64,000 nucleotides of DNA, from positions 62,001 through 126,000 of the forward strand of contig NZ_FZNO01000003.1 of NCBI RefSeq assembly GCF_900188025.1. Reading direction: 5' to 3'. Each line of letters begins with the position of its first letter. Position 1 is the stretch's first letter. This stretch comes from Blastococcus mobilis (lineage in GTDB: Bacteria; Actinomycetota; Actinomycetes; Mycobacteriales; Geodermatophilaceae). The translations under genes and the position numbers were made by a program. The notes under the pieces are model-generated. The model ran no database searches and had not been told where the DNA came from. It was given only the letters and a program-made list of their open reading frames with translations. This document shows, piece by piece, positions 653-27,844 of the stretch.

Positions 653-2787
653 TGTCCCTCACCGCCGCCGAACTCAAGGCGGTCTACACCGTCGACGAGG
701 GCCCGCTGGACCGCTCCCTGGGCGGGCTGGGCGGGAAGGTGAAGGGCGCCGTCGGGGGCGCTGTCGCCGCCGCCGCGGGCCTGTTCGCGTTCGGCGAGAT
801 CAAGGACGGGTTCCTGTCCTTCACCGGGGCGGCGTCGGACCTGAACGAGACGATCAACAAGTCGTCGGTGATCTTCGGTGCCAACGCGGCGGCGATGGAC
901 GACTGGTCGAAGGGGGCGGCGACCAACCTCGGCCTGTCCCGGCAGCAGGCCCTCAACGCCGCTGCCGGGTTCGGCGACATGTTCTCCCAGATCGGGTTCG
1001 CCGGCGACAAGGCCGCCGACATGTCCCGGCAGGTCGTGCAGATGTCGGCCGACCTGGGCAGCTTCAACAATCTGGACACCGCGGACGTCGCCGACCGGAT
1101 GAGCGCCGCGTTCCGCGGCGAGTTCGACTCCCTCCAGGCGCTCATCCCCAACATCAACGCCGCCCGGGTGGAGTCCGAGGCGCTGGCGATGACCGGCAAG
1201 GAGAACGCCGAGGCGCTGACCGCGCAGGAGAAGGCCGCGGCCGTCCTCGCGATCGTGCAGAAGGACGGCGCCCGCGCCATGGGCGACTTCGCGAAGACCT
1301 CCGACGGGGCCGCGAACTCGGCGAAGATCGCCACCGCCGAGTGGGAGGACCAGAAGGCCGCGATCGGCCAGGACCTGCTGCCGGCACTGACGGCCATGAT
1401 CGGGTTCGTCCGCTCCACGGTGATCCCCGGCGTGGGGGCGCTGGCCTCGTTCATCAAGGATGACGCGATCCCCGCCATCCGGGACATGGCGCAGTGGATC
1501 GACGCCAACAAGGGCCCGATCATGGTCGTCGCCGGTGTGATCGCGGCGGTGTTCCTGCCGCACCTGATCGCCCTCGGCGTGCAGTCGCTGCGGACGAAGG
1601 CCATCGTCGTCGGCGCGTGGATCGCCAAGCAGGCCGCCGCGATCGGTGCCGCCATCGTCCACTCCGCGCAGATCGCCTGGATGATCGTCCGGTTCGTCGC
1701 CCTCTCCGCGGCCGCGGTGCTGAACGCCGGCCTCACGGTGGGCGCCTGGATCGGCATGGGTGTCGCCGCCGTCGCTCAGGCCGCGATCGTCGCCGCCGCG
1801 TGGCTGGGAGCTCAGGTGCGCACTGTGGCGTCGCTGGTCGTCATGGCCGCCGGGTTCGTCGCCCAGGGCGCGGTCATGGTCGCGTCCACGGCCGTGACGG
1901 TCGCCTCTGTCGTCGCCGGCTGGGTGCTGATGGGCGCTCAGGCGCTCATCCAGGCCGCTCGCATGGCCGCCGCCTGGTTCATCGCCCTCGGCCCGGTCGG
2001 CTGGGTGATCGCCGCCGTCATCGGCCTGGTCGCCCTGATCGTCGCCAACTGGGACACCGTCGTCCGCTGGACGCGGCAGGCGTGGGAATGGGTCGTCGGC
2101 GCCGTGAAGTCCGCGGTGCAGTTCATGGTCAACGCCTTCCTGAACTTCACGCTGCCCGGCCTGATCATCAAGCACTGGGACACCATCAAGTCCGCGTTCT
2201 CCAACGGCGTCTCGGCCGCGGTCGGCTTCGTGCGCGAGCTGCCCGGCAGGGCGGCGGCTGCCCTGGGGAACCTCGGCTCGCTCCTGGTCGGCGCCGGCGG
2301 CGACCTGATCCGCGGATTCATCAACGGCATCAAGAGCGCGTTCGGGCGGGTGAGGGACACCCTGTCGAACCTGACGTCGATGCTGCCGGACTGGAAGGGC
2401 CCAGCTGCCCGCGACGCAACGATCCTGCGCAACGCCGGCCGACTGGTCATGGGCGGTTTCGAAGCTGGGCTGGTGTCGAAGTTCGGAGACGTCCGCCGCA
2501 CCCTGGGCGATTTCACCGGGCAGTTGCAGGCTGCGACGGCCCCCGAGATGCTGCGTCTCGCCGACACGCAGGCCCTGGCCGGGCTCACCGTCCGGCCGCC
2601 CGCCGTCGCCGCCAGGCCCGCCGTCCCGGCCGCAGCTGGGGCGGCGGGCGGCGTGGGCGGCGCTGGGGCCGCGGGTGGCGGGATCGGTGAGCTGATCCAC
2701 ATCGACAACTACCACGAGGCCCCCGGCTCGTCGCCGCAGCAGAACGCGCAGGCGCTCGCCATCGAGTGGCGCACCAGGGGCGTGTGA
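652..2787 (+). CDS. Phage tail tape measure protein
   Basis: The product has 711 residues. It follows the chaperone pair and sets tail length in siphoviruses. The N-terminal ~280 residues are Ala-rich helices with typical tape-measure wording (DLNETINKSSVIFGANA). The middle (~290-480) is a long run of hydrophobic segments that may insert in the host membrane during DNA ejection. The C-terminus holds a Gly/Ala linker. By the usual ~0.15 nm per residue the tail would be near 100 nm. The ATG overlaps the preceding TGA, showing translational coupling. No lysozyme or peptidase motif was noticed. Confidence 0.93.
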   Translation: MSLTAAELKAVYTVDEGPLDRSLGGLGGKVKGAVGGAVAAAAGLFAFGEIKDGFLSFTGAASDLNETINKSSVIFGANAAAMDDWSKGAATNLGLSRQQALNAAAGFGDMFSQIGFAGDKAADMSRQVVQMSADLGSFNNLDTADVADRMSAAFRGEFDSLQALIPNINAARVESEALAMTGKENAEALTAQEKAAAVLAIVQKDGARAMGDFAKTSDGAANSAKIATAEWEDQKAAIGQDLLPALTAMIGFVRSTVIPGVGALASFIKDDAIPAIRDMAQWIDANKGPIMVVAGVIAAVFLPHLIALGVQSLRTKAIVVGAWIAKQAAAIGAAIVHSAQIAWMIVRFVALSAAAVLNAGLTVGAWIGMGVAAVAQAAIVAAAWLGAQVRTVASLVVMAAGFVAQGAVMVASTAVTVASVVAGWVLMGAQALIQAARMAAAWFIALGPVGWVIAAVIGLVALIVANWDTVVRWTRQAWEWVVGAVKSAVQFMVNAFLNFTLPGLIIKHWDTIKSAFSNGVSAAVGFVRELPGRAAAALGNLGSLLVGAGGDLIRGFINGIKSAFGRVRDTLSNLTSMLPDWKGPAARDATILRNAGRLVMGGFEAGLVSKFGDVRRTLGDFTGQLQAATAPEMLRLADTQALAGLTVRPPAVAARPAVPAAAGAAGGVGGAGAAGGGIGELIHIDNYHEAPGSSPQQNAQALAIEWRTRGV

Positions 2788-3653
2788 TGGGACCGACCAG
2801 CATCCTGTGGGGCGGCCTCACCCTCGCCACCGGCCAGGACGGCCCCTACCGGCTGACGTCGCTGGAGGGCTGGGAGGAGCTCCCCCCGGCCCGCTACGAC
2901 AAGCAGTCGCGCACCAACGCCCACGGCGCCCACCCGTCCCGGGTGTTCTCCGACGAGCGGCTGGTGATCGTCGAGGGGTTCTGCTGGTCCGCCACGGAGC
3001 GGGATGCGCTGCTCGCGCAGCTGCAGGCCGCCACCCCGTTCCAGGACGACGAGCAGCCGCTGACCGTCACCGCCGCCGGGCGGACCTTAAGCGCGTCTGC
3101 GCAGCTGCTGCAGGCCCGCCCCATGCTGCTCAAGGGCCAGTGGGGCATCGGCCGGTTCGGGTGGCTGCTGCAGTGGCGCTGCCCCGACCCGCTCCGGTAC
3201 GGGCCGCCGCGCACCGTCGCCACCCCGCTGCCCGCCCCCGGCGGGGGCCTGCAGTACAACCTGTACAAGACCGGGTTCCTCGACTACGGGCAGCCGGGCA
3301 CGCTCGGCCGGGTCACGTTGACCAACGCGGGCACCGCGCCGGCCCCGATCCTGTTCGGGGTGCGGGGCGGCCTCGAGCAGGGCTGGGAGATCTCCGCCGC
3401 CGGTGACCGGCTGCGGTACGTGGCGCCGGTGCCGTCCGGGCAGGTGATCGAGGTCGACACCGCGGTCGGGACGGTGATGGTGGAGGGCACTGCGTCCCGC
3501 CGCAGCAGCCTCGTAATCTCCGACTGGCTGTACGTGCCCCGGGCGGCGCCCGACGGCACACCGGGTGAGCTCACCGTCCAGTTCACCTCCCTCGGCGGCT
3601 CCCGCGACCCCGCGGCGGAACTGTCGGCCACCTCGTCGGACGTGTACTGGTGA
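2787..3653 (+). CDS. Siphovirus distal tail (Dit-like) protein
   Basis: 288 residues. It lies immediately after the tape measure gene, where siphoviruses encode the distal tail protein that forms the hub joining tube and tip. The N-terminal half has the Dit-like mix of short strands and a central tryptophan-rich part (RFGWLLQWRCPDPLRYG). The C-terminal half reads as a beta-sandwich, with NAGTAPAPILFGVRGG recalling galectin-like Dit domains. I chose the ATG at 2787 because it forms a TGATG overlap with the upstream stop; an in-frame GTG at 2766 would overlap 22 bases and has no better ribosome site. Confidence 0.75.
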   Translation: MGPTSILWGGLTLATGQDGPYRLTSLEGWEELPPARYDKQSRTNAHGAHPSRVFSDERLVIVEGFCWSATERDALLAQLQAATPFQDDEQPLTVTAAGRTLSASAQLLQARPMLLKGQWGIGRFGWLLQWRCPDPLRYGPPRTVATPLPAPGGGLQYNLYKTGFLDYGQPGTLGRVTLTNAGTAPAPILFGVRGGLEQGWEISAAGDRLRYVAPVPSGQVIEVDTAVGTVMVEGTASRRSSLVISDWLYVPRAAPDGTPGELTVQFTSLGGSRDPAAELSATSSDVYW

Positions 3654-4819
3654 CCGCCCCCAGCATGGGGCTGCTGTCGTGGCTCCCCGGCCGCCCCGCC
3701 CGCCCGACAGTGCGAACCACGCTGCTGTTCGGCGACCTGCGGACCGGCCGCATCACCGACACGCTGGACGCCACCACCTGCAACTGGACGCAGGTCAACA
3801 ACGACGCCGGCGCCGTCGACCAGGTGGTCGTGCCCGAACGGGAGGTGCGCCGCAAGGACCTGCGTCGTACCGCGCGGGCGGCGCGCACGTTCCTGGCCGT
3901 CGACATCGACGGCCGCATCCAGCAGTTCGGGCCCATCTGGTCACGCACCTGGGACGACGAACGCCAGCAGCTCACCCTCGGCGCGGCCGGCCTCTGGAGC
4001 CTGTTCGACCACCGCAAGGTGCTCCCTGTCCTCGCGGCCGGGCAGCGGGTGCAGGACGCCGTCACGACGGTGTCCGGCACTGATCTGGGGGGCATCGGCC
4101 AGTACCTGGTCGCCCAAGCCATGGCACACGTCGGCGGCAACCTGCCGGTCATCCTCCCTGAGCTGCGCGCCGGAGACCGGACCGAGACGTTCTACGGCTG
4201 GGAGCTCCTCGACGTCGGCGACCAGATCCGGCAGCTCACCAAGCGCGAGACCGCCGCCCCCGACATCCGGTTCCGGCCCCGCTACACCGCCGACCGGCTC
4301 GGCATCGAGGCCGTGATGGAGACCGGCACCGAGGACACCCCGCTGCTCACCCAGATCGGCGACGACTGGTACTTCGACACCACCGTCCCCAAATCCCCGG
4401 TGCTGAACATCTCCACCGACGAGGACGCCACCGTCATGGGCCAACGCGCCTGGGTGACCGGCTCCGGCCAGGAACAGGACGTGCGCATCGGCACCGCCTA
4501 CGACCCCACCCAAGTCAACGACGGCTACCCGCTGCTCGAGGTGGAGGAGATGCGCTCCAACGTAATCGAGCAGGCCACGTTGGACGGGCACGCCGAGAAC
4601 CTCCGGGACCGCTCCGCCCGCCCGATCGAGATCTGGAAAGTGACGGTGCGCGCCGAGGCCGCGGTGGAGGTGCTGGCCGGCGACTACGCCCGCGTCATCG
4701 TCCCCGCCGACCACGCGTGGCTGCCGGCCGGTGAGGCGTTCATGCGGATCAAGACTAAGAGTGGGGATCTGGGAGACACGGTGACGCTGGACATGTACCC
4801 CGTGGCCGGGACCGTCTGA
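3650..4819 (+). CDS. Minor tail protein (Gp37-like tail tip protein)
   Basis: 389 residues. It starts at a GTG overlapping the previous TGA. The N-terminal part (TLLFGDLRTGRITDTLDA, then FGPIWSRTWDDERQQLTLGA) matches my memory of the ReqiPepy6 Gp37-like family of actinophage tail tip proteins. The role is inferred as the base of the tail tip, contacting the distal tail protein on one side and the fibre on the other. No enzymatic motif is apparent. Order and coupling with neighbours support a structural role; the family name is from recall, not a search. Confidence 0.75.
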   Translation: MTAPSMGLLSWLPGRPARPTVRTTLLFGDLRTGRITDTLDATTCNWTQVNNDAGAVDQVVVPEREVRRKDLRRTARAARTFLAVDIDGRIQQFGPIWSRTWDDERQQLTLGAAGLWSLFDHRKVLPVLAAGQRVQDAVTTVSGTDLGGIGQYLVAQAMAHVGGNLPVILPELRAGDRTETFYGWELLDVGDQIRQLTKRETAAPDIRFRPRYTADRLGIEAVMETGTEDTPLLTQIGDDWYFDTTVPKSPVLNISTDEDATVMGQRAWVTGSGQEQDVRIGTAYDPTQVNDGYPLLEVEEMRSNVIEQATLDGHAENLRDRSARPIEIWKVTVRAEAAVEVLAGDYARVIVPADHAWLPAGEAFMRIKTKSGDLGDTVTLDMYPVAGTV

Positions 4820-18999: not shown

Positions 19000-20358
19000 G
19001 TGACGCACGCGGGAAACCGTGCCCGCCGGCACGGTCGACGTTCGGGCCCCGACGGGTCCCCGCATCGGTCTCCGGGCCGCCGTCGATCTCGGAGACCGCA
19101 CGGGACCGTCGTACGGGCCCTGTTGGTCCTTGCCTTCGGGCTCGGGCTGACGGCCTTCACGCCCGGCATCGCGCAGGCCGAGGGGGAGGCAGTGGCCGGC
19201 ACCCTCCAGACGAGCCTCAGCGGTCCGATCGAGGGTGTCGAGGTCCTCGTCGAGAGCGTCGACGGCGAGCGCATCGACGAGGTCGAGTCCGACGAGAACG
19301 GCCGGTGGTCGGTCGACCTCCCGGGCCCCGGCCAGTACGTCGTCAGCATCGACGCCGACGACCTGCCCGAGGGGGTGACGCTGAGCGGCGAGGAGAGCCG
19401 CACCGTCACCGTGGCCGAGGGGCGGCGCCAGCCGGTCAACCTCGGGCTGGAGGACGGCAGCCGCGGCGCCGGCGGCGGAGGGGTCCGGGCGGTCCAGCTG
19501 CTCGTCGACGGCCTGCGGTTCGGCCTGCTCATCGCCATGTGCGCCGTCGGCCTGTCGTTGATCTTCGGCACGACCGGGCTGACGAACTTCGCCCACGGCG
19601 AGCTGGTGACCATCGGCGCCGTCGTCGCCTGGTACATCAACATCCAGGGCGGCGTCCCGCTGATCCCGGCCACGTTGCTGGCCATGGTCGTCGGCGGCGC
19701 CGTCGGTGCGCTCAACGAGCTCGGTATCTGGCGGCCGCTGCGCCGCCGCGGGACGGGGCTGGTTGCGGCGCTGGTCGTCTCGATCGGCCTGTCGCTGGTG
19801 CTGCGCTACGGCATCCAGATCTTCTACGGCGGCCGGTCGAGCCCGTACGGCCAGTACCAGTCGCAGCGAGCGGTGGACTACGGGCTGTTCAACCTGACCA
19901 ACCGGGCCCTGTTCTCCATCGTCATCTCGGTGGTCGTGCTGGTGCTCGTCGCCCTCATGCTGCAGCGCACGAAGATCGGCAAGGCGATGCGGGCGGTCTC
20001 GGACAACCGTGACCTCGCCGCGTCGTCCGGCATCGACGTCAACCGGGTGATCATGGTCGTCTGGGTGATGGGAGCAGGCCTGGCCGCCCTCGGTGGAGTT
20101 CTGCTGGGCCTCTCGGACCAGGTGCAGTGGGACATGGGCTTCCGGCTTCTGCTGCTGATGTTCGCCGGGGTGACCCTGGGCGGGCTCGGCACCGCCTACG
20201 GCGCCCTCGTCGGCAGTCTCGTCGTCGGCGTCTTCGTCCAGATGTCGACGCTGGTCATCCCCGACGACATGAAGTACGTCGGCGGGCTGCTGCTCTTGAT
20301 CGTCATCCTCGTCATCCGGCCCCAGGGGATCCTGGGCAGCCGCGCACGGATCGGCTGA
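19000..20358 (+). CDS. livH: LivH-type ABC permease with signal peptide and extracellular beta-rich domain
   Basis: 452 residues, against ~300 for ordinary LivH. The order is: a basic Arg-rich tail (1-36), a signal peptide or first anchor (~37-60, ending GIAQA), a beta-rich domain (~66-151), a Gly linker (154-161), then the permease (~163-452). The domain has alternating strands with a VESDENGRWSVDLPGPGQYV core, like carboxypeptidase regulatory or SpaA-type domains. The permease shows LSLIFGTTGLTNFAHGEL and GAVVGALNEL-like motifs and multiple helices. It moves branched-chain amino acids or similar ligands with LivM. First gene of four. Confidence 0.9.
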   Translation: MTHAGNRARRHGRRSGPDGSPHRSPGRRRSRRPHGTVVRALLVLAFGLGLTAFTPGIAQAEGEAVAGTLQTSLSGPIEGVEVLVESVDGERIDEVESDENGRWSVDLPGPGQYVVSIDADDLPEGVTLSGEESRTVTVAEGRRQPVNLGLEDGSRGAGGGGVRAVQLLVDGLRFGLLIAMCAVGLSLIFGTTGLTNFAHGELVTIGAVVAWYINIQGGVPLIPATLLAMVVGGAVGALNELGIWRPLRRRGTGLVAALVVSIGLSLVLRYGIQIFYGGRSSPYGQYQSQRAVDYGLFNLTNRALFSIVISVVVLVLVALMLQRTKIGKAMRAVSDNRDLAASSGIDVNRVIMVVWVMGAGLAALGGVLLGLSDQVQWDMGFRLLLLMFAGVTLGGLGTAYGALVGSLVVGVFVQMSTLVIPDDMKYVGGLLLLIVILVIRPQGILGSRARIG

Positions 20359-20361
20359 GCC

Positions 20362-21360
20362 ATGGGAGACCTGCTCGACGCTCTGTCTGTCGCCCTGAAG
20401 GCCGGTCTCGGCTTCCAGGCGATCTTCTTCGGACTGCTGGCGATCGGCATCAACGTGCAGTTCGGTTACACCGGGCTGCTCAACTTCGGCCAGATCGCCT
20501 TCGCGATGCTCGGAGGATTCGGCATCGCGGTGTCGGTGAGCCAGTGGGGCCTGTCCTTCTGGGTCGGTGTCCTCGTCGGCCTCCTGGCTGCCGTCGTCCT
20601 CGCGTTGCTGCTCGGTCTGCCGACCCTGCGGCTGCGGGCCGACTACCTGGCGATCGCCACCATCGCGGCAGCCGAAGGGCTGCGGCTGCTGTTCCGCTCG
20701 GTCTCGGCCACGCCGGTCACCGGCGGCACCCGTGGACTGGCGGCGTTCAACCGCGACTTCATCGCGCTCGCCCCGTGGGAGACCGGCAAGCGCTACTCGT
20801 TCCTGGGGACCACGTGGTCCGGCGCCGAGCTCTGGGTCATGTTGGTCGGATGGGTCGTCGTCGCCCTGGGGTGCGTGCTCGTCTGGCTGCTCATGCGCAG
20901 CCCCTGGGGCCGGGTGGTCAAGTCGGTGCGCGAGGACGAGGACGCCGTCCGCGCCCTGGGCAAGAACGTCTACGTCTACAAGATGCAGGCGCTGGTCCTC
21001 GGCGGCGTCTTCGGTGCACTCGGCGGGATGATCTACGCCGTGGGCACCGGCTCGGCCATCCCCGACCAGTACCAGAACGCCAATACGTTCCTGGCGTACG
21101 CGGCGCTCATCCTGGGCGGCGCCGCCCGGGTGCTCGGCCCGGTGATCGGGGCCATGCTGCTGTTGTTCCTCATCCAGTTCGCCGACACCCTGCTGCGCAC
21201 GCTGATCAGCAACGGCGTCATCCCGGAGGGCCTGTTCACCGCGACCGACGTGGCGGCGATCCGCTTCGTCCTCGTGGGCCTGGGCCTCATGCTGCTCCTG
21301 GTCTTCCGGCCACAGGGCATCTTCGGTGACCGACGAGAGGTGATGCTCGATGCCCGCTGA
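20362..21360 (+). CDS. livM: LivM-type ABC permease
   Basis: 332 residues, ATG start 3 nt after the livH stop. It is the second membrane subunit of the branched-chain amino-acid transporter family. Visible family marks are INVQFGYTGLLNFGQIAFAMLGGF near the N-terminus (TGLLNFGQ motif), LPTLRLRADYLAIATIAAAEGLRL in the middle, and a coupling segment with SVREDEDAVRALGKNVYVYK that contacts the ATPases. About nine hydrophobic segments are seen. Its end overlaps livG by 11 nt. Confidence 0.93.
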   Translation: MGDLLDALSVALKAGLGFQAIFFGLLAIGINVQFGYTGLLNFGQIAFAMLGGFGIAVSVSQWGLSFWVGVLVGLLAAVVLALLLGLPTLRLRADYLAIATIAAAEGLRLLFRSVSATPVTGGTRGLAAFNRDFIALAPWETGKRYSFLGTTWSGAELWVMLVGWVVVALGCVLVWLLMRSPWGRVVKSVREDEDAVRALGKNVYVYKMQALVLGGVFGALGGMIYAVGTGSAIPDQYQNANTFLAYAALILGGAARVLGPVIGAMLLLFLIQFADTLLRTLISNGVIPEGLFTATDVAAIRFVLVGLGLMLLLVFRPQGIFGDRREVMLDAR

Positions 21361-22402
21361 CCCGACTCCCCACGGCGCGACGGCGTCCGGTGCCGGCGCG
21401 CCCGGCGCCGGCGACCGGTCCGATGCCCCGGGCGGCTTCCACAGCGGGGATGCCCCTCGCCGGCTGGCCCAGGCCGCGCTGCGCGACCTCCCCTGGGAGG
21501 TGGGCGTCGCCAAGCCGGACCCGGCGGTCGTCGTCGACGGCGTCACCCGGACGTTCGGCGGCCTCACCGCGGTCTCGGTGGACCACCTGGAGATCCAGCG
21601 CGGCGGGATCACCGGTCTGATCGGCCCCAACGGTGCCGGCAAGACCACGCTGTTCAACCTGCTCACGGGGTTCGACCAGCCCGATACCGGCACCTGGTCG
21701 TTCAACGGCCGGTCGCTGGGCAAGATGGCGCCGCACGAGGTGGCCCGGCTCGGCGTGGTCCGGACCTTCCAGCTGACCAAGGCCCTGTCACGCCTCACCG
21801 TGCTGCAGAACATGCTGCTCGGGGCGCAGGACCAGCGCGGCGAGAGCTTCTTCCGGGCCCTCGTCCCGGGCATCTGGCGAGGCCAGGAGAAGGCCAACAC
21901 CGAGAAGGCGATGGAGCTGCTCCATCGGTTCAAGCTGGACACCAAGAAGGACGACTTCGCCGGCACGCTGTCGGGCGGTCAGCGCAAGCTGCTCGAGATG
22001 GCTCGGGCGCTGATGAGCGACCCGCACGTCGTCATGCTGGACGAGCCGATGGCCGGGGTGAACCCGGCCCTGACGCAGAGCCTGCTCGGGCACGTCAAGG
22101 ACCTGCGCGAGCAGGGCATGACCGTCATCTTCGTCGAGCACGACATGGACGTCGTGCGCGACATCAGCGACTGGGTGGTCGTCATGGCGGCCGGCCGGAT
22201 CATCGCGGAGGGCCCGCCGGAGTCCATCAGCCAGAACCAGGCCGTGGTCGACGCCTACCTGGGGGCCCACCACGATGCGCCGCTGACCGTCGAGGAGGAG
22301 GACCAGGTGCTCGCCCAGGCGGAACAGGCGATCGCGCGCGAGGAACAGACCGACGGTGACGTGCTGAGCGCCGATACCAGGCCCGAGAGGACCGACCGAT
22401 GA
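21350..22402 (+). CDS. livG: LivG-type ABC transporter ATP-binding protein
   Basis: 350 residues, longer than the usual ~255. An N-terminal ~55-residue Gly/Ala/Pro-rich stretch and a C-terminal ~45-residue acidic tail are extra. The ATPase core has Walker A GPNGAGKTTLFN, signature LSGGQRKLLEMA, Walker B VVMLDEPMAGVNP with catalytic Glu, and the H-loop EHDMD. An in-frame start nearer the core would give the standard size, but the ATG at 21350 overlaps livM as coupled genes usually do. Confidence 0.93.
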   Translation: MPADPTPHGATASGAGAPGAGDRSDAPGGFHSGDAPRRLAQAALRDLPWEVGVAKPDPAVVVDGVTRTFGGLTAVSVDHLEIQRGGITGLIGPNGAGKTTLFNLLTGFDQPDTGTWSFNGRSLGKMAPHEVARLGVVRTFQLTKALSRLTVLQNMLLGAQDQRGESFFRALVPGIWRGQEKANTEKAMELLHRFKLDTKKDDFAGTLSGGQRKLLEMARALMSDPHVVMLDEPMAGVNPALTQSLLGHVKDLREQGMTVIFVEHDMDVVRDISDWVVVMAAGRIIAEGPPESISQNQAVVDAYLGAHHDAPLTVEEEDQVLAQAEQAIAREEQTDGDVLSADTRPERTDR

Positions 22403-23247
22403 GCGAGCCCCTGTTCCAGGTGGACGAGTCCGGCGAGGACCTCACCCGCGCCGACACGGCGACGTCCACCCAGCTCTCCCCGGCCGAGAAGGCCGCCACC
22501 CGCGAGGAGCACACGCGCCTGGCCGAGGGAGCGCTGGTGCGGGCCGACGACCTGGTCGCCGGTTACGTGCCAGGGGTGAACATCCTGCGCGGGTGCGACT
22601 TCTACCTCCAGGACGGGGAACTGGTCGGCATCATCGGGCCGAACGGGGCCGGGAAGTCCACCTTGCTCAAGGCGCTGTTCGGGCTGATCCCCGTGCGTTC
22701 GGGGTCGGTGACCCTGCGAGGTGAGGACATCACCTCGGCGCCGGCGCACCGGCTGGTGTCCCTGGGCGTGGGCTATGTGCCGCAGAACAACAACGTGTTC
22801 CCCTCGCTGACCATCGAGGAGAACATGCAGATGGGCGTCTACCTGCGGCCGAAGACGTTCAAGGACCGCTTCGACTTCGTCGTCGACCTGTTCCCGCTGC
22901 TCGGCGAGCGACGGAAGGGCAAGGCCGGGTCGCTGTCCGGTGGCGAACGGCAGATGGTCGCCATGGGCCGGGCGCTGATGATGGACCCGTCGGTGCTGCT
23001 GCTCGACGAGCCCTCGGCGGGCCTGTCCCCCGCCTACCAGGACGAGGTCTTCATCCGCTGTCGGCGGATCAACGCGACCGGTGTCTCGATCATCATGGTC
23101 GAGCAGAACGCGCGCCGATGCCTGCAGATCTGCGACCGCGGCTACGTCCTCGACCAGGGCCGCAACGCCTACACCGACACCGGGGAGTCGCTCATGCACG
23201 ACCCGAAGGTCATCGAGCTCTACCTGGGGACCCTGGCGAAGGCGTAG
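22399..23247 (+). CDS. livF: LivF-type ABC transporter ATP-binding protein
   Basis: 282 residues; the ATG overlaps the livG stop (ATGA). It pairs with LivG to power import. An extra N-terminal ~45 residues precede the core, which holds Walker A GPNGAGKSTLLKALFG, signature LSGGERQMVAMG, Walker B VLLLDEPSAGLSP and EQNARR (the LivF-type switch region). It is the last gene of the operon and is followed by a perfect hairpin 22 nt after the stop. Confidence 0.93.
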   Translation: MSEPLFQVDESGEDLTRADTATSTQLSPAEKAATREEHTRLAEGALVRADDLVAGYVPGVNILRGCDFYLQDGELVGIIGPNGAGKSTLLKALFGLIPVRSGSVTLRGEDITSAPAHRLVSLGVGYVPQNNNVFPSLTIEENMQMGVYLRPKTFKDRFDFVVDLFPLLGERRKGKAGSLSGGERQMVAMGRALMMDPSVLLLDEPSAGLSPAYQDEVFIRCRRINATGVSIIMVEQNARRCLQICDRGYVLDQGRNAYTDTGESLMHDPKVIELYLGTLAKA

Positions 23248-23535: not shown

Positions 23536-24864
23536 TCAGCGCTGCGGGCCGATGCCCTGGGCGTTGAGACCCTGGATGATCTTCGACGACTCCTCGAACC
23601 CGATCACCACGATCGCGTCGGGGTTGAGCTCGACCATCTGCTGGACCTCGGAGTCGAAGTTCGCAGCCTGCGGGTCGTAGATGATCGTCTTGATGTCGCC
23701 CTCGGAGAGGCCGCCCTCGACCAGGTTCTTGGCGGTGTTCTCCGCCAGGCCGGTGCCGTACGGGTCGTTGAGGGCCAGGATCCCGACGGTGTTGTTGCCC
23801 TCCTCGAGGATGAGGTCGGACAGCGCGCGGGCCTGCAGCACGTCCGGGGGCGCGGTGCGGAAGTACAGACCGTTGTCGTTGTACGTCGTGAAGATGTCCG
23901 AGGTGTTCGCCGGGGAGATCTGCATGACGCCGGCACCGGTGATGGTGTCGATGACGGTCTGGCTCACGCCGGACGACGCGGCGCCGACGATCGCGTTCAC
24001 GCCGGCCTGCAGGAGACGGTCGACGGTCTGCGTGGCGGTGTCGGTCGAGGTGTCACCGGAGTCGCCGCCCTCGGCACGGACGGGAGCGCCGAGGACGCCG
24101 CCCGCCTCGTTGATGTCGGAGATCGCCAGGTTGAAGGCGGCGATCTCCGGCGGGCCGAGGAAGGCCAGGTTGCCCGTCTCGGGCAGCAGGTAGCCGATGA
24201 CCAGCGGCTCACCGGTCGTGCCGGGCGGGGCCGGCGGCGGACCCTCGTCGGTGGAGGCATTGGCCTCGTCCCCGGCGAAGACGTACTCGTTGTCCTCGGC
24301 GTGGATCGTGTTGTCCTCGGCGAACTGGAGGATGCCGAAGCTCGCCTCGGCCGGCTCGCCCGCGTCGGTGAAGGCCAGCGGACCCGAGACGCCGTCGTAG
24401 TCCGGGTTGCCACCGGAGTTGATGATCTCCAGGCAGGACGCGAAGTCCTCGCACTTCTCGCCACCGGAGGTCACGCCGTTGACGTAAGCCTTGAAGACGT
24501 TGGCGTCGTTGGTGCCCGCCATCTGGGCGGCCAGCGCGGTGATCACGACGGCGTCGTAGGTCTCACCGGCGTAGTTGTAGTCCTGCAGTTCGGGGTCGAT
24601 CTCGAGCAGACGGTCGGTGAATTCGGAGCCGAGCTCGGTGAGCGGCGTGGTGCCCTTCATCCCGGCCAGCGCGCCCTCCTCGTCGAAGTCCTCGCCGAGA
24701 GCGTTCCCCATGTTGCCGTCGGTGCCGTAGATGTTGACCTGCTTCTCGCCGCCACCCTCACCGCCGGTGTCGCCACCCTCCTCGCCGCCGCCGCCACAGG
24801 CGGTGAGCGCGAGCAGGGCGGCACCGGTGACGGCGATGCTGCGGGCAGTGGTGCCAGTGCGCAT
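23536..24864 (-). CDS. livK: Branched-chain amino-acid-type binding lipoprotein with circularly permuted order
   Basis: 442 residues, ATG at 24864 with GGGAG upstream. The lipobox LTAC places the lipid on Cys23. The rest is in unexpected order. Residues ~42-200 (from VNIYGTDGNMGNAL to AEDNTIHAEDNEYVFAGDE) are what normally forms the C-terminal third of a LivK protein, including the Cys138/Cys144 pair. After a Pro-rich linker (~201-219), residues 220-441 (from PLVIGYLLPETGNLAFLG to GLNAQGIGPQ) are the normal N-terminal two thirds. The protein stops where a canonical one would run on into VNIYGTDGN. Ligand capture for LivHMGF is inferred; the gene is convergent with that operon. Confidence 0.88.
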   Translation of the reverse strand: MRTGTTARSIAVTGAALLALTACGGGGEEGGDTGGEGGGEKQVNIYGTDGNMGNALGEDFDEEGALAGMKGTTPLTELGSEFTDRLLEIDPELQDYNYAGETYDAVVITALAAQMAGTNDANVFKAYVNGVTSGGEKCEDFASCLEIINSGGNPDYDGVSGPLAFTDAGEPAEASFGILQFAEDNTIHAEDNEYVFAGDEANASTDEGPPPAPPGTTGEPLVIGYLLPETGNLAFLGPPEIAAFNLAISDINEAGGVLGAPVRAEGGDSGDTSTDTATQTVDRLLQAGVNAIVGAASSGVSQTVIDTITGAGVMQISPANTSDIFTTYNDNGLYFRTAPPDVLQARALSDLILEEGNNTVGILALNDPYGTGLAENTAKNLVEGGLSEGDIKTIIYDPQAANFDSEVQQMVELNPDAIVVIGFEESSKIIQGLNAQGIGPQR

Positions 24865-25081
24865 CAAGCAACTCCCAGTGTCATCGTTCTGTGCGTCGCC
24901 GGACGGGTCCGCAGGACGAATCCGCCGCTCGGACGCCCGATCGGTGCGGAGAACCTAACTGCCACGGGAGAGGATGCACCCGGCGTTCCACTGACCGTGA
25001 TGAGGTCGTGATCTGAGCCACTCCGCCGAGAACGTCGGCGAACCGTGCGTCACGACGGAGTACGGCCCCGGCCGAGCCGGG

Positions 25082-25857: not shown

Positions 25858-25881
25858 TGCAGTCTGTCGTCCTCCGGACGA

Positions 25882-26148
25882 CACCGCGGCCAATGGCCGT
25901 CCTCGGAATCGTTGAGCCGCTGCGTCACGCCTCCGCGGACCCCTCCGGGGCCCACCCGCCCCGACAAAGACACCGCGGCCAATGGCCGTCCCCGGAATCG
26001 TTGGGCCGCTGCGTCACGCCCCCGCGGACCCCTCCGGGGCCCACCCGCCCCGACAAAGACACCGCGGCCAATGGCCGTCCCCGGAATCGTTGAGCCGCTG
26101 CGTCACGCCCCCGCGGACCCCTCCGGGGCCCACCCGCCCCGACAAAGA
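25882..26148 (+). repeat. Three tandem copies of an 89-bp unit
   Basis: Copies start at 25882, 25971 and 26060; a fourth begins at 26149 and decays after a few bases. Copies differ by one to three substitutions. Each starts CACCGCGGCCAATGGCCGT, which holds the palindrome CGGCCA-A-TGGCCG, and ends in CCCCGACAAAGA. The array fills the gap between tRNA-Leu and the decarboxylase. No gene is seen in it. Confidence 0.95.
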
Positions 26149-26179
26149 CACCACGGCCGACCGCTCACCGGTCAGGCAA

Positions 26180-26185
26180 TACGGT
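26180..26185 (+). promoter_or_regulatory. Leaderless -10 (TACGGT) for the decarboxylase
   Basis: TACGGT, 6-nt spacer GGTGCC, GTG at 26192; it begins about 30 nt after the tandem array. Confidence 0.5.
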
Positions 26186-26191
26186 GGTGCC

Positions 26192-27844
26192 GTGAGCGAC
26201 GCCTCGAACGTCCCGGTCCCCCACATGACGCCCGAGCAGTTCCGGCAGCACGGCCACGAGGTCGTCGACTGGATCGCCGACTACTGGTCCCGGATCGGCG
26301 ACTTCCCGGTGCGCTCCCAGGTCTCCCCCGGTGAGGTGCGCGCGACCCTGCCGGCCGAGGCGCCCGAGCAGGGCGAGCCGTTCTCCGCCGTCCTCGCCGA
26401 CCTCGACCGGATCGTCCTCCCCGGGACGACGCACTGGCAGCACCCCGGCTTCTTCGGCTACTTCCCCGCCAACACGTCCGGACCCTCCGTCCTGGGTGAC
26501 CTCGTCTCGGCGGGCCTCGGCGTCCAGGGGATGTCGTGGGTGACCAGCCCGGCCGCGACCGAGCTCGAGCAGCACCTCATGGACTGGGTCGCCGACCTCC
26601 TCGGCCTCCCCGCGTCGTTCCGCTCCACCGGCACGGGCGGTGGGGTCGTCCAGGACTCCAGCTCCGGCGCCAACCTGGTCGCGCTGCTGGCCGCCCTCCA
26701 CCGCGCGAGCAGGGGCGGCACCGTCCGCCACGGTGTGGAGCCGGACCGCGCCACCGTCTATGTCTCCTCGCAGACCCACTCGTCCATGGAGAAGGCGGTC
26801 CGGATCGCCGGCCTGGGCAGCGACGCCGTCCGCATCGTCGAGGTCGACGGCGACCTCGCCATGCGGCCGGCGGCTCTCGCGGCCCGGCTCGAACGCGACA
26901 TCGCCCGGGGCTACACCCCGGTGCTGGTCTGCGCCACGGTGGGGACGACGTCGACGACGGCGATCGACCCGCTCGCCGAGCTCGGGCCGATCTGCCAGAA
27001 GTACGGCGTCTGGCTGCACGTGGACGCCGCCTACGCCGGGGTGAGCGCGCTCGTCCCCGAGCTGCGCGAGCTCCAGGCCGGCGTGGAGTGGGCCGACAGC
27101 TACACCACCGACGCCCACAAGTGGCTGCTCACCGGCTTCGACGCCACCCTGTTCTGGGTGGCCGACCGGGTCGCGCTCACCGGCGCCCTGGCGATCCTCC
27201 CGGACTACCTCCGCAACGCCGCCACGGACGCCGGGACGGTCGTGGACTTCCGCGACTGGCAGATCCCCCTCGGCCGCCGCTTCCGGGCGCTCAAGCTGTG
27301 GTTCGTCCTCCGCTGGTACGGCGCGGAGGGGCTGCGGTCGCACATCCGCGCACACGTCGCCATGGCACAGCAGCTGGCCGGGTGGGCGGCGGCCGACGAA
27401 CGGTTCGACGTCGTCGCGCCGCATCCGCTCTCCCTGGTCTGCCTGCGCCCCCGATGGGCCGACGAGGTCGACGCCGACGTCGCCACCATGACCCTGCTGG
27501 AGCGCCTCAACGACGGCGGCGAGGTGTTCCTCACCCATACGACGGTCGAGGGACAGGCCGTCCTGCGGATCGCGGTCGGCTCCCCCACGACCACCCCCGC
27601 ACACGTCGAGCGCGTGTGGACGCTCCTCCGTGAGAGCTTCGACTGGTTGGCCGCCGACTTCGCCGCCGCGGCGGCCGAGCGCGCCACCCAGCGCAGGGCG
27701 GAGCAGGAGGCCGAGGAGGCCCGGGCGCGGCAGGCCGCTGAGCCGACCCCGTCGTCCGACGAGGCAACCGCTGACGAGGCGACCGCTGAGGCGGAGGGAT
27801 CCGCGGCCGACGAGGGCTCGCTCAGTCCGTCAGTGCCCGGATGA
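26192..27844 (+). CDS. Group II pyridoxal-phosphate amino-acid decarboxylase
   Basis: 550 residues. It is in the aromatic-L-amino-acid/glutamate decarboxylase family and makes an amine plus CO2. Signatures are HWQHPGFFGYFPANTS near ~75, GGGVVQDSSSGANLVALLAA, the PLP-stacking region THSSMEKAVRIAG, HVDAAYAG, and Schiff-base Lys310 in TTDAHKWLLTGFD. The true substrate (tyrosine, tryptophan, DOPA or other) is not readable. The ~60-residue C-terminal tail is acidic and low complexity. GTG at 26192 is set by the upstream -10; ATG at 26225 is an alternative. Its 3' end overlaps convergent tesB by 23 bp. Confidence 0.9.
   Translation: MSDASNVPVPHMTPEQFRQHGHEVVDWIADYWSRIGDFPVRSQVSPGEVRATLPAEAPEQGEPFSAVLADLDRIVLPGTTHWQHPGFFGYFPANTSGPSVLGDLVSAGLGVQGMSWVTSPAATELEQHLMDWVADLLGLPASFRSTGTGGGVVQDSSSGANLVALLAALHRASRGGTVRHGVEPDRATVYVSSQTHSSMEKAVRIAGLGSDAVRIVEVDGDLAMRPAALAARLERDIARGYTPVLVCATVGTTSTTAIDPLAELGPICQKYGVWLHVDAAYAGVSALVPELRELQAGVEWADSYTTDAHKWLLTGFDATLFWVADRVALTGALAILPDYLRNAATDAGTVVDFRDWQIPLGRRFRALKLWFVLRWYGAEGLRSHIRAHVAMAQQLAGWAAADERFDVVAPHPLSLVCLRPRWADEVDADVATMTLLERLNDGGEVFLTHTTVEGQAVLRIAVGSPTTTPAHVERVWTLLRESFDWLAADFAAAAAERATQRRAEQEAEEARARQAAEPTPSSDEATADEATAEAEGSAADEGSLSPSVPG

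Follow-up and report, generated by a model that had tools for sequence, protein, structure and literature searches.

A naturally circularly permuted LivK-type binding lipoprotein beside livHMGF in Blastococcus mobilis, and the probable recurrence of its rearrangement in Actinomycetota

Introduction

Can a substrate-binding lipoprotein of the LivK type be circularly permuted in nature, and if so, how and how often did the rearrangement take place, and does the product serve the importer beside which it is encoded? These questions are raised by a gene in a 64,000-nucleotide stretch of the Blastococcus mobilis genome (hereafter the window), in which the two sequence blocks of a branched-chain amino acid type binding protein appear in swapped order. 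Most known cases of natural circular permutation are isolated, ancient events that came to light through structures. Our main reading, to which we assign a probability of roughly 0.86, is that the gene encodes the binding lipoprotein of the adjacent LivHMGF importer, and that this is a naturally circularly permuted type I protein (LivK/Peripla_BP_6) made in place.

The permuted gene and its product

The gene occupies positions 23536..24864 on the reverse strand, as do all the features described in this section, and comprises 442 codons plus a stop when counted from the ATG at 24864, with the stop codon at 23536-23538. The first-pass annotation had described both the reading frame and a lipoprotein signal as intact, and both descriptions hold. 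An in-frame TTG at 24867, upstream of the ATG, was the start chosen by the ORF caller, and residues of the protein (P0001) are numbered here from that TTG, one codon before the ATG, so that Cys24 corresponds to the Cys23 of the earlier numbering. M2 and R3 are invariant among 14 aligned sequences, as are A23, C24 and G25 of the lipobox. A terminator had also been reported 3' of the gene; the GC-rich hairpin found there has no T-run, and a scan gave no terminator-like site.

The signal peptide (24796..24864), identified from its sequence, ends at the lipobox LTA-Cys and is followed by a Gly/Glu-rich tether (24742..24795) that leads from the lipid-bearing Cys to the first strand and is mostly modelled with low confidence. 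The block that is C-terminal in canonical relatives comes next (residues 43-200; 24268..24741), as identified by a profile match, by alignments and by BLASTP against L148, a canonical relative from genome G252. This block contains the invariant residues Cys139 and Cys145, and sequence comparison places at its start a beta-alpha unit, YGTDGN...ALGEDF (residues 43-64; 24676..24741). A linker (residues 201-219; 24211..24267) runs from the old C terminus to the old N terminus and into the block that canonical relatives carry at their N-terminal end (residues 220-441; 23545..24210), recognised by its Peripla_BP_6 match. The last two codons, Q442 and R443, together with the stop (23536..23544), constitute the new C terminus, at the point where a canonical protein would continue into the moved unit.

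Block order relative to canonical proteins

The first-pass annotation had proposed a circular permutation, and separate comparison of the two blocks with L148 bears this out. Residues 201-441 align with L148 42-284 (61% identity, E = 1e-92) and residues 46-200 with L148 290-441 (51% identity, E = 1e-46), that is, in swapped order. Only five residues lie between the two matched blocks within L148, which ends at the start of the permuted protein's linker and is itself colinear with the solved LivJ-type structure 4gnr from residue 9 to 320, across the switch point.

Pfam also displays the swap. Its Peripla_BP_6 profile fits residues 222-441 at 109.2 bits (curated cut-off 31.7) through positions 2-217 of 343, so that the profile match is significant but not colinear over the whole profile, the remaining third lying upstream in swapped order. 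When the N-terminal fragment ahead of the linker is searched in isolation, it aligns with ANF_receptor at positions 226-351 of 353 with E = 1.1e-4 and 21.8 bits, below the curated cut-off of 25.4. NCBIfam gave partial matches well below their cut-offs, the highest of them to PRK15404, a branched-chain amino acid binding protein, and in phmmer searches against solved structures only the second block aligned with LivJ-type proteins, the top match spanning residues 221-439. Searches with profiles that run in one direction thus annotate just about two thirds of such a permuted protein.

The L148 alignment of the 201-441 block extends back through the Pro-rich linker into the L148 stretch that precedes the N block. 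This agrees with the earlier description of the linker as joining the old C and N termini and, given the simple composition of such linkers, weakly suggests that it descends from the opening stretch of another copy of the gene.

Conservation in Geodermatophilaceae

A full-length colinear copy of the permuted protein is present in 92 of 112 genomes of the family, its own included, and 12 of these 92 are single-contig assemblies. Without the source genome the count is 91 of 111, at 61-81% identity (both family figures are hand counts over search rows). Within the genus, 12 of 16 genomes carry such a copy, again including its own. The 20 family genomes lacking a full-length copy comprise nine with no match, eight with weak matches only and three with fragments. 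Named records with a permuted copy belong to Blastococcus, Geodermatophilus, Modestobacter, Klenkia and Goekera, and three genomes (G085, G088 and G104) carry an additional paralogue in canonical order, at 42-44% and 39% identity.

The source is a draft assembly of 88 contigs, in which two adjacent gene copies might in principle have been misjoined, a circumstance that the first-pass annotation had named as fatal to its proposal. The chance of this is practically nil: the same block order recurs in colinear full-length copies from independent assemblies, single-contig ones among them, as well as in the named records, and the gene is interior to a contig of 289 kb. We conclude that the permutation is genuine and has been conserved; its extent across the family goes beyond what a single sequence could show.

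Two permuted arrangements

Arrangements were first read from the best 80 loci, by tblastn and ORFs. Among 139 fetched ORFs containing both blocks, 72 have the arrangement of the window gene (CP-A), 21 have a second permuted arrangement (CP-B) and 46 are canonical; these numbers are not a prevalence, since the ORFs are best matches to permuted queries and a few loci were fetched twice. CP-A proteins start with the YGTDGN...ALGEDF unit, which is internal in canonical relatives. Besides the window gene they include loci L062-L106 (almost all Geodermatophilaceae), 16 Micromonospora loci, and L129, L134, L135 and L140. CP-B proteins start about 26 residues later and carry the same unit at their very end. 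Among the best 80 loci this arrangement is found in L107-L116, L120, L121, L123 and L126, from organisms named as Acidimicrobiia, Acidimicrobiales, Microthrixaceae, Ilumatobacteraceae, or merely Actinomycetota or Actinomycetes. Full-length CP-B rows occur in 6 of 396 genomes drawn evenly across the phylum, and in 2 of 35 genomes of the family f30. Of 26 further loci in that family, 25 are canonical and one, L243, is incomplete and comprises the N block only.

Two CP-B loci looked unusual by eye. The CP-B frame at L113:7734-9191 has a middle stretch that seems to be out of frame, as if through two compensating frameshifts, possibly reflecting sequencing error or decay. At L116, a second CP-B copy (1-999) is immediately followed by a single ORF (1031-4000) in which an Hsp70-like ATPase region is combined with a transmembrane stretch and a CP-B binding-protein block.

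Predicted structure and position of the cuts

The permuted chain as a whole is predicted to fold. AlphaFold2 gave the window protein a pLDDT of 87.5 and a pTM of 0.86 from an alignment of 34 sequences, with pLDDT below 50 in residues 1-39 only and a folded part that extends from strand 45-48 to just past helix 427-436. A CP-B protein was modelled at pLDDT 79.1 and pTM 0.78 from 11 sequences; its folded part runs from strand 70-73, the counterpart of strand 71-75 in the window protein, to a closing strand 441-445 and helix 447-451. The 50 Foldseek matches listed for the model are LivJ-type and related binding proteins together with class C receptors, with 209-259 aligned columns and target TM values up to 0.56. 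Among the top PDB matches, LivJ-type chains of about 345-375 residues align over about 210-235 columns, as expected of a permutant, since an alignment that follows sequence order can take in just one of its blocks.

The first-pass annotation had located the new ends at a crossover between the two lobes. The model, read together with the expected topology of the fold, instead puts the cut in a helix-to-strand loop inside one lobe. By what we take to be the type I topology, the CP-A and CP-B cuts each fall in a C-lobe loop that leads from a helix into a strand; the second lobe switch comes one or two strands later, and the loops presumably face away from the cleft. With a cut there, the lipid anchor would no longer sit at the outer end of the N lobe but at the outer end of the C lobe. 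By analogy with LivJ, the permuted protein may hold a small amino-acid-like ligand between its two lobes.

Genomic neighbourhood

Four Pfam-identified transport genes lie on the forward strand next to the permuted gene: the permeases livH (19000..20358) and livM (20362..21360) and the ATPases livG (21350..22402) and livF (22399..23247), the last of which is convergent with it. LivH carries an N-terminal CarboxypepD_reg-like domain ahead of the permease domain, at 30.5 bits, just below the cut-off of 32.3. A tie between this extra domain and the permutation was considered and dropped, as LivH matches reach that region in several canonical loci too. On the other side of the permuted gene, a tandem array of an 89-base unit (25880-26158; 3.1 copies, 97% matches) overlaps the start of a forward-strand ORF at 25982-27844 that by eye resembles a pyridoxal-phosphate-dependent decarboxylase.

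The convergent placement of the binding-protein gene and livF is found in 43 of the 45 CP-A loci L062-L106, in 12 of 14 CP-B loci (Acidimicrobiia type, from the best 80 loci) and in all four loci of the second CP-A lineage; the four misses in the first two groups are all at contig ends. Canonical loci share it in 16 of 18 cases. Of the two exceptions, the G085 paralogue is co-directional, and the other locus gave no liv match over 17 kb. The permuted gene thus occupies the place of the canonical gene in most lineages seen. The two CP-B genes of family f30 are divergent from livH, and one locus (L119) was incomplete in the neighbourhood survey. Searches of up to 8 kb on each side of the 16 Micromonospora permuted genes gave livHMGF matches at none of them (L117, L118, L122, L124, L125, L127, L128 and nine more).

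These positions make it likely, as far as gene order and homology can tell, that the permuted protein is the binding protein of the adjacent LivHMGF importer. It might instead act apart from that importer, for example as a sensor or decoy, with the operon using another binding protein. The Micromonospora copies would fit such a role, as would the location of the permuted gene on the strand opposite to livHMGF and the ten Peripla_BP_6 matches in its own genome, itself among the ten. We regard this as decidedly unlikely, given that the opposite-strand placing is also the rule in canonical relatives and that the genome contains no close canonical paralogue, the sole further match to the permuted protein having 26% identity.

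Proposed mechanism

Under our main reading, a canonical gene would have been duplicated in tandem, and in-frame fusion of the duplicates would have given an N-C-N-C chain, which would become C-linker-N once the leading N block and the trailing C block had been lost. The rearrangement would have taken place in situ, beside livF. CP-A and CP-B would then have retained different copies of one beta-alpha unit, which fits alternative trimming of a duplicated intermediate. Duplication-fusion followed by trimming, as suggested in the first-pass annotation, is still the best mechanism we can offer, although the searches returned neither an intermediate nor a vestige: the DGN motif of the moved unit occurs at both ends in none of the 93 permuted ORFs, the class examined for it, two N cores occur in no ORF, and no significant vestige was detected in the window flanks (best E 0.14).

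Number of origins

For phylogenies, permuted chains were rotated in silico and then aligned with canonical chains. The main tree contains 88 of the 139 ORFs, leaving out near-duplicates in Geodermatophilaceae and Micromonospora, the truncated CP-B copy L116_0 and double-fetched loci. A second tree of 112 rows adds 24 of the 25 further canonical rows and leaves out the incomplete L246.

The 88-row tree needs four changes of arrangement. CP-A has two origins in this tree, one for Geodermatophilaceae plus Micromonospora, with Micromonospora on a long branch, and one for L129, L134, L135 and L140; CP-B likewise has two, one of the Acidimicrobiia type and one for the pair in family f30. The AU test rejects a single clade of all permutants (p = 2.7e-5) and a single CP-A clade (p = 1.3e-7). 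For a single CP-B clade it gives p = 0.037 with 88 rows, and with 112 rows it does not reject such a clade (p = 0.26). In the 112-row tree, CP-A takes three changes. When the 17 Acidimicrobiia-type CP-B rows are joined to the main CP-A group, p is 0.012, and with all 19 CP-B rows it is 0.0036, both for groups picked after seeing the tree; the branch that sets the main CP-A group apart has support 94/84, below the strict mark. A quick tree rooted with an outgroup, whose branches are very long, displays two CP-A and two CP-B changes, with its well-supported branches alone forcing one change per group.

Trees of the N half and of the C half, both weakly resolved, each need three CP-A and two CP-B changes. 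In both, path lengths put L129, L134, L135 and L140 closer to canonical rows than to any other permutants, and the same holds for the f30 pair, though barely so for the C half. These trees also bear on the idea that parts of two different binding proteins were fused by domain shuffling, in place of a permutation of one gene. A like possibility has been raised for the permuted lipoprotein TpMglB-2 on account of the poor conservation of its moved part (PMC4990184), and the nearest canonical rows differ between the two half trees for some permutants. Yet both blocks of the window protein match one and the same canonical protein at the identities given above, and the half trees agree on the CP-A and CP-B change counts, albeit with few columns in the C-half tree, so that we consider such a fusion very improbable.

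With one gene permuted, the rearrangement could have happened in a single ancient event, with the ends later sliding from CP-A to CP-B and with reversions to canonical order. All permutants do belong to one subfamily and have two neighbouring cuts, and both the CP-B result with 112 rows and the few changes forced by the outgroup-rooted tree are compatible with this. It is nevertheless unlikely in view of the rejected single clades (all permutants, CP-A), the low p value for the main CP-A group joined with all CP-B rows, the multiple changes needed by each half and the canonical order of the outgroup.

From these phylogenies, at least two origins are strongly supported, three are favoured and four are possible; we have reduced the claim from four because its CP-B part weakened as rows were added. 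Transfer between lineages could explain the f30 CP-B pair. Rearrangements of this kind probably arose independently in related lineages, at the CP-A cut or one beta-alpha unit later at the CP-B cut.

Relation to known permuted binding proteins

Permuted type I binding proteins are already known, as exemplified by TpMglB-2. Text searches of open-licence PubMed Central met no report of a permuted LivK or branched-chain amino acid binding protein, in keeping with the first-pass annotation, which knew of no described permuted member of this family. TpMglB-2 (Tp0684) is a permuted glucose-binding lipoprotein for which a "Type Ic / Cluster Bc" was proposed, with relatives reported in treponemes and Gram-positives; its first three N-lobe strands are now C-terminal and the order of its C lobe is unaffected (PMC4990184). 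Like TpMglB-2, the window protein is a lipidated type I binding protein with a natural circular permutation, as judged from sequence and model. It differs from TpMglB-2 in belonging to LivK/Peripla_BP_6 and not to an MglB-like glucose family, in a cut between helix and strand in what is presumably the C lobe and in moved parts that keep 51-61% identity to a canonical relative; it therefore shares the permuted fold of Type Ic but neither the cut nor the family. Glycine betaine-binding proteins, as found by CPSARST, are likewise binding proteins related by circular permutation, although of another family and detected by structure (PMC2395249).

Compared with the LivJ/LivK type itself (PF13458 Peripla_BP_6; 4gnr), the window protein has two homologous blocks, a lipoprotein signal, livHMGF as neighbour and a predicted alpha/beta fold, but its blocks are swapped and its chain begins and ends in the former C-terminal region. 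Canonical LivK relatives belonging to this subfamily in Actinomycetota (L148, L158, L179, L181 and others) share its neighbourhood and, in many cases, the motifs SPANTS and YGxDGN; unlike the window protein, they have the ordinary N-to-C order.

Implications

The surprising part of these results is the probable recurrence of the permutation. We lean, by a little better than even odds, to the view that this LivK-type subfamily in Actinomycetota went through three or more permutations, which cut two neighbouring helix-to-strand loops and happened mostly in place beside the same operon. Each event would have moved the tether to the other lobe, and the rearrangement may hence have been favoured either because tethering was under selection or because the locus is prone to duplication. 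The canonical, CP-A and CP-B versions are clearly alike in sequence and stand beside the same operon, which makes them directly comparable. Their comparison would allow one to test whether the lobe that bears the anchor matters for delivery to the ABC importer, how permutation proceeds in genes and how a chain may be rearranged without loss of its fold.
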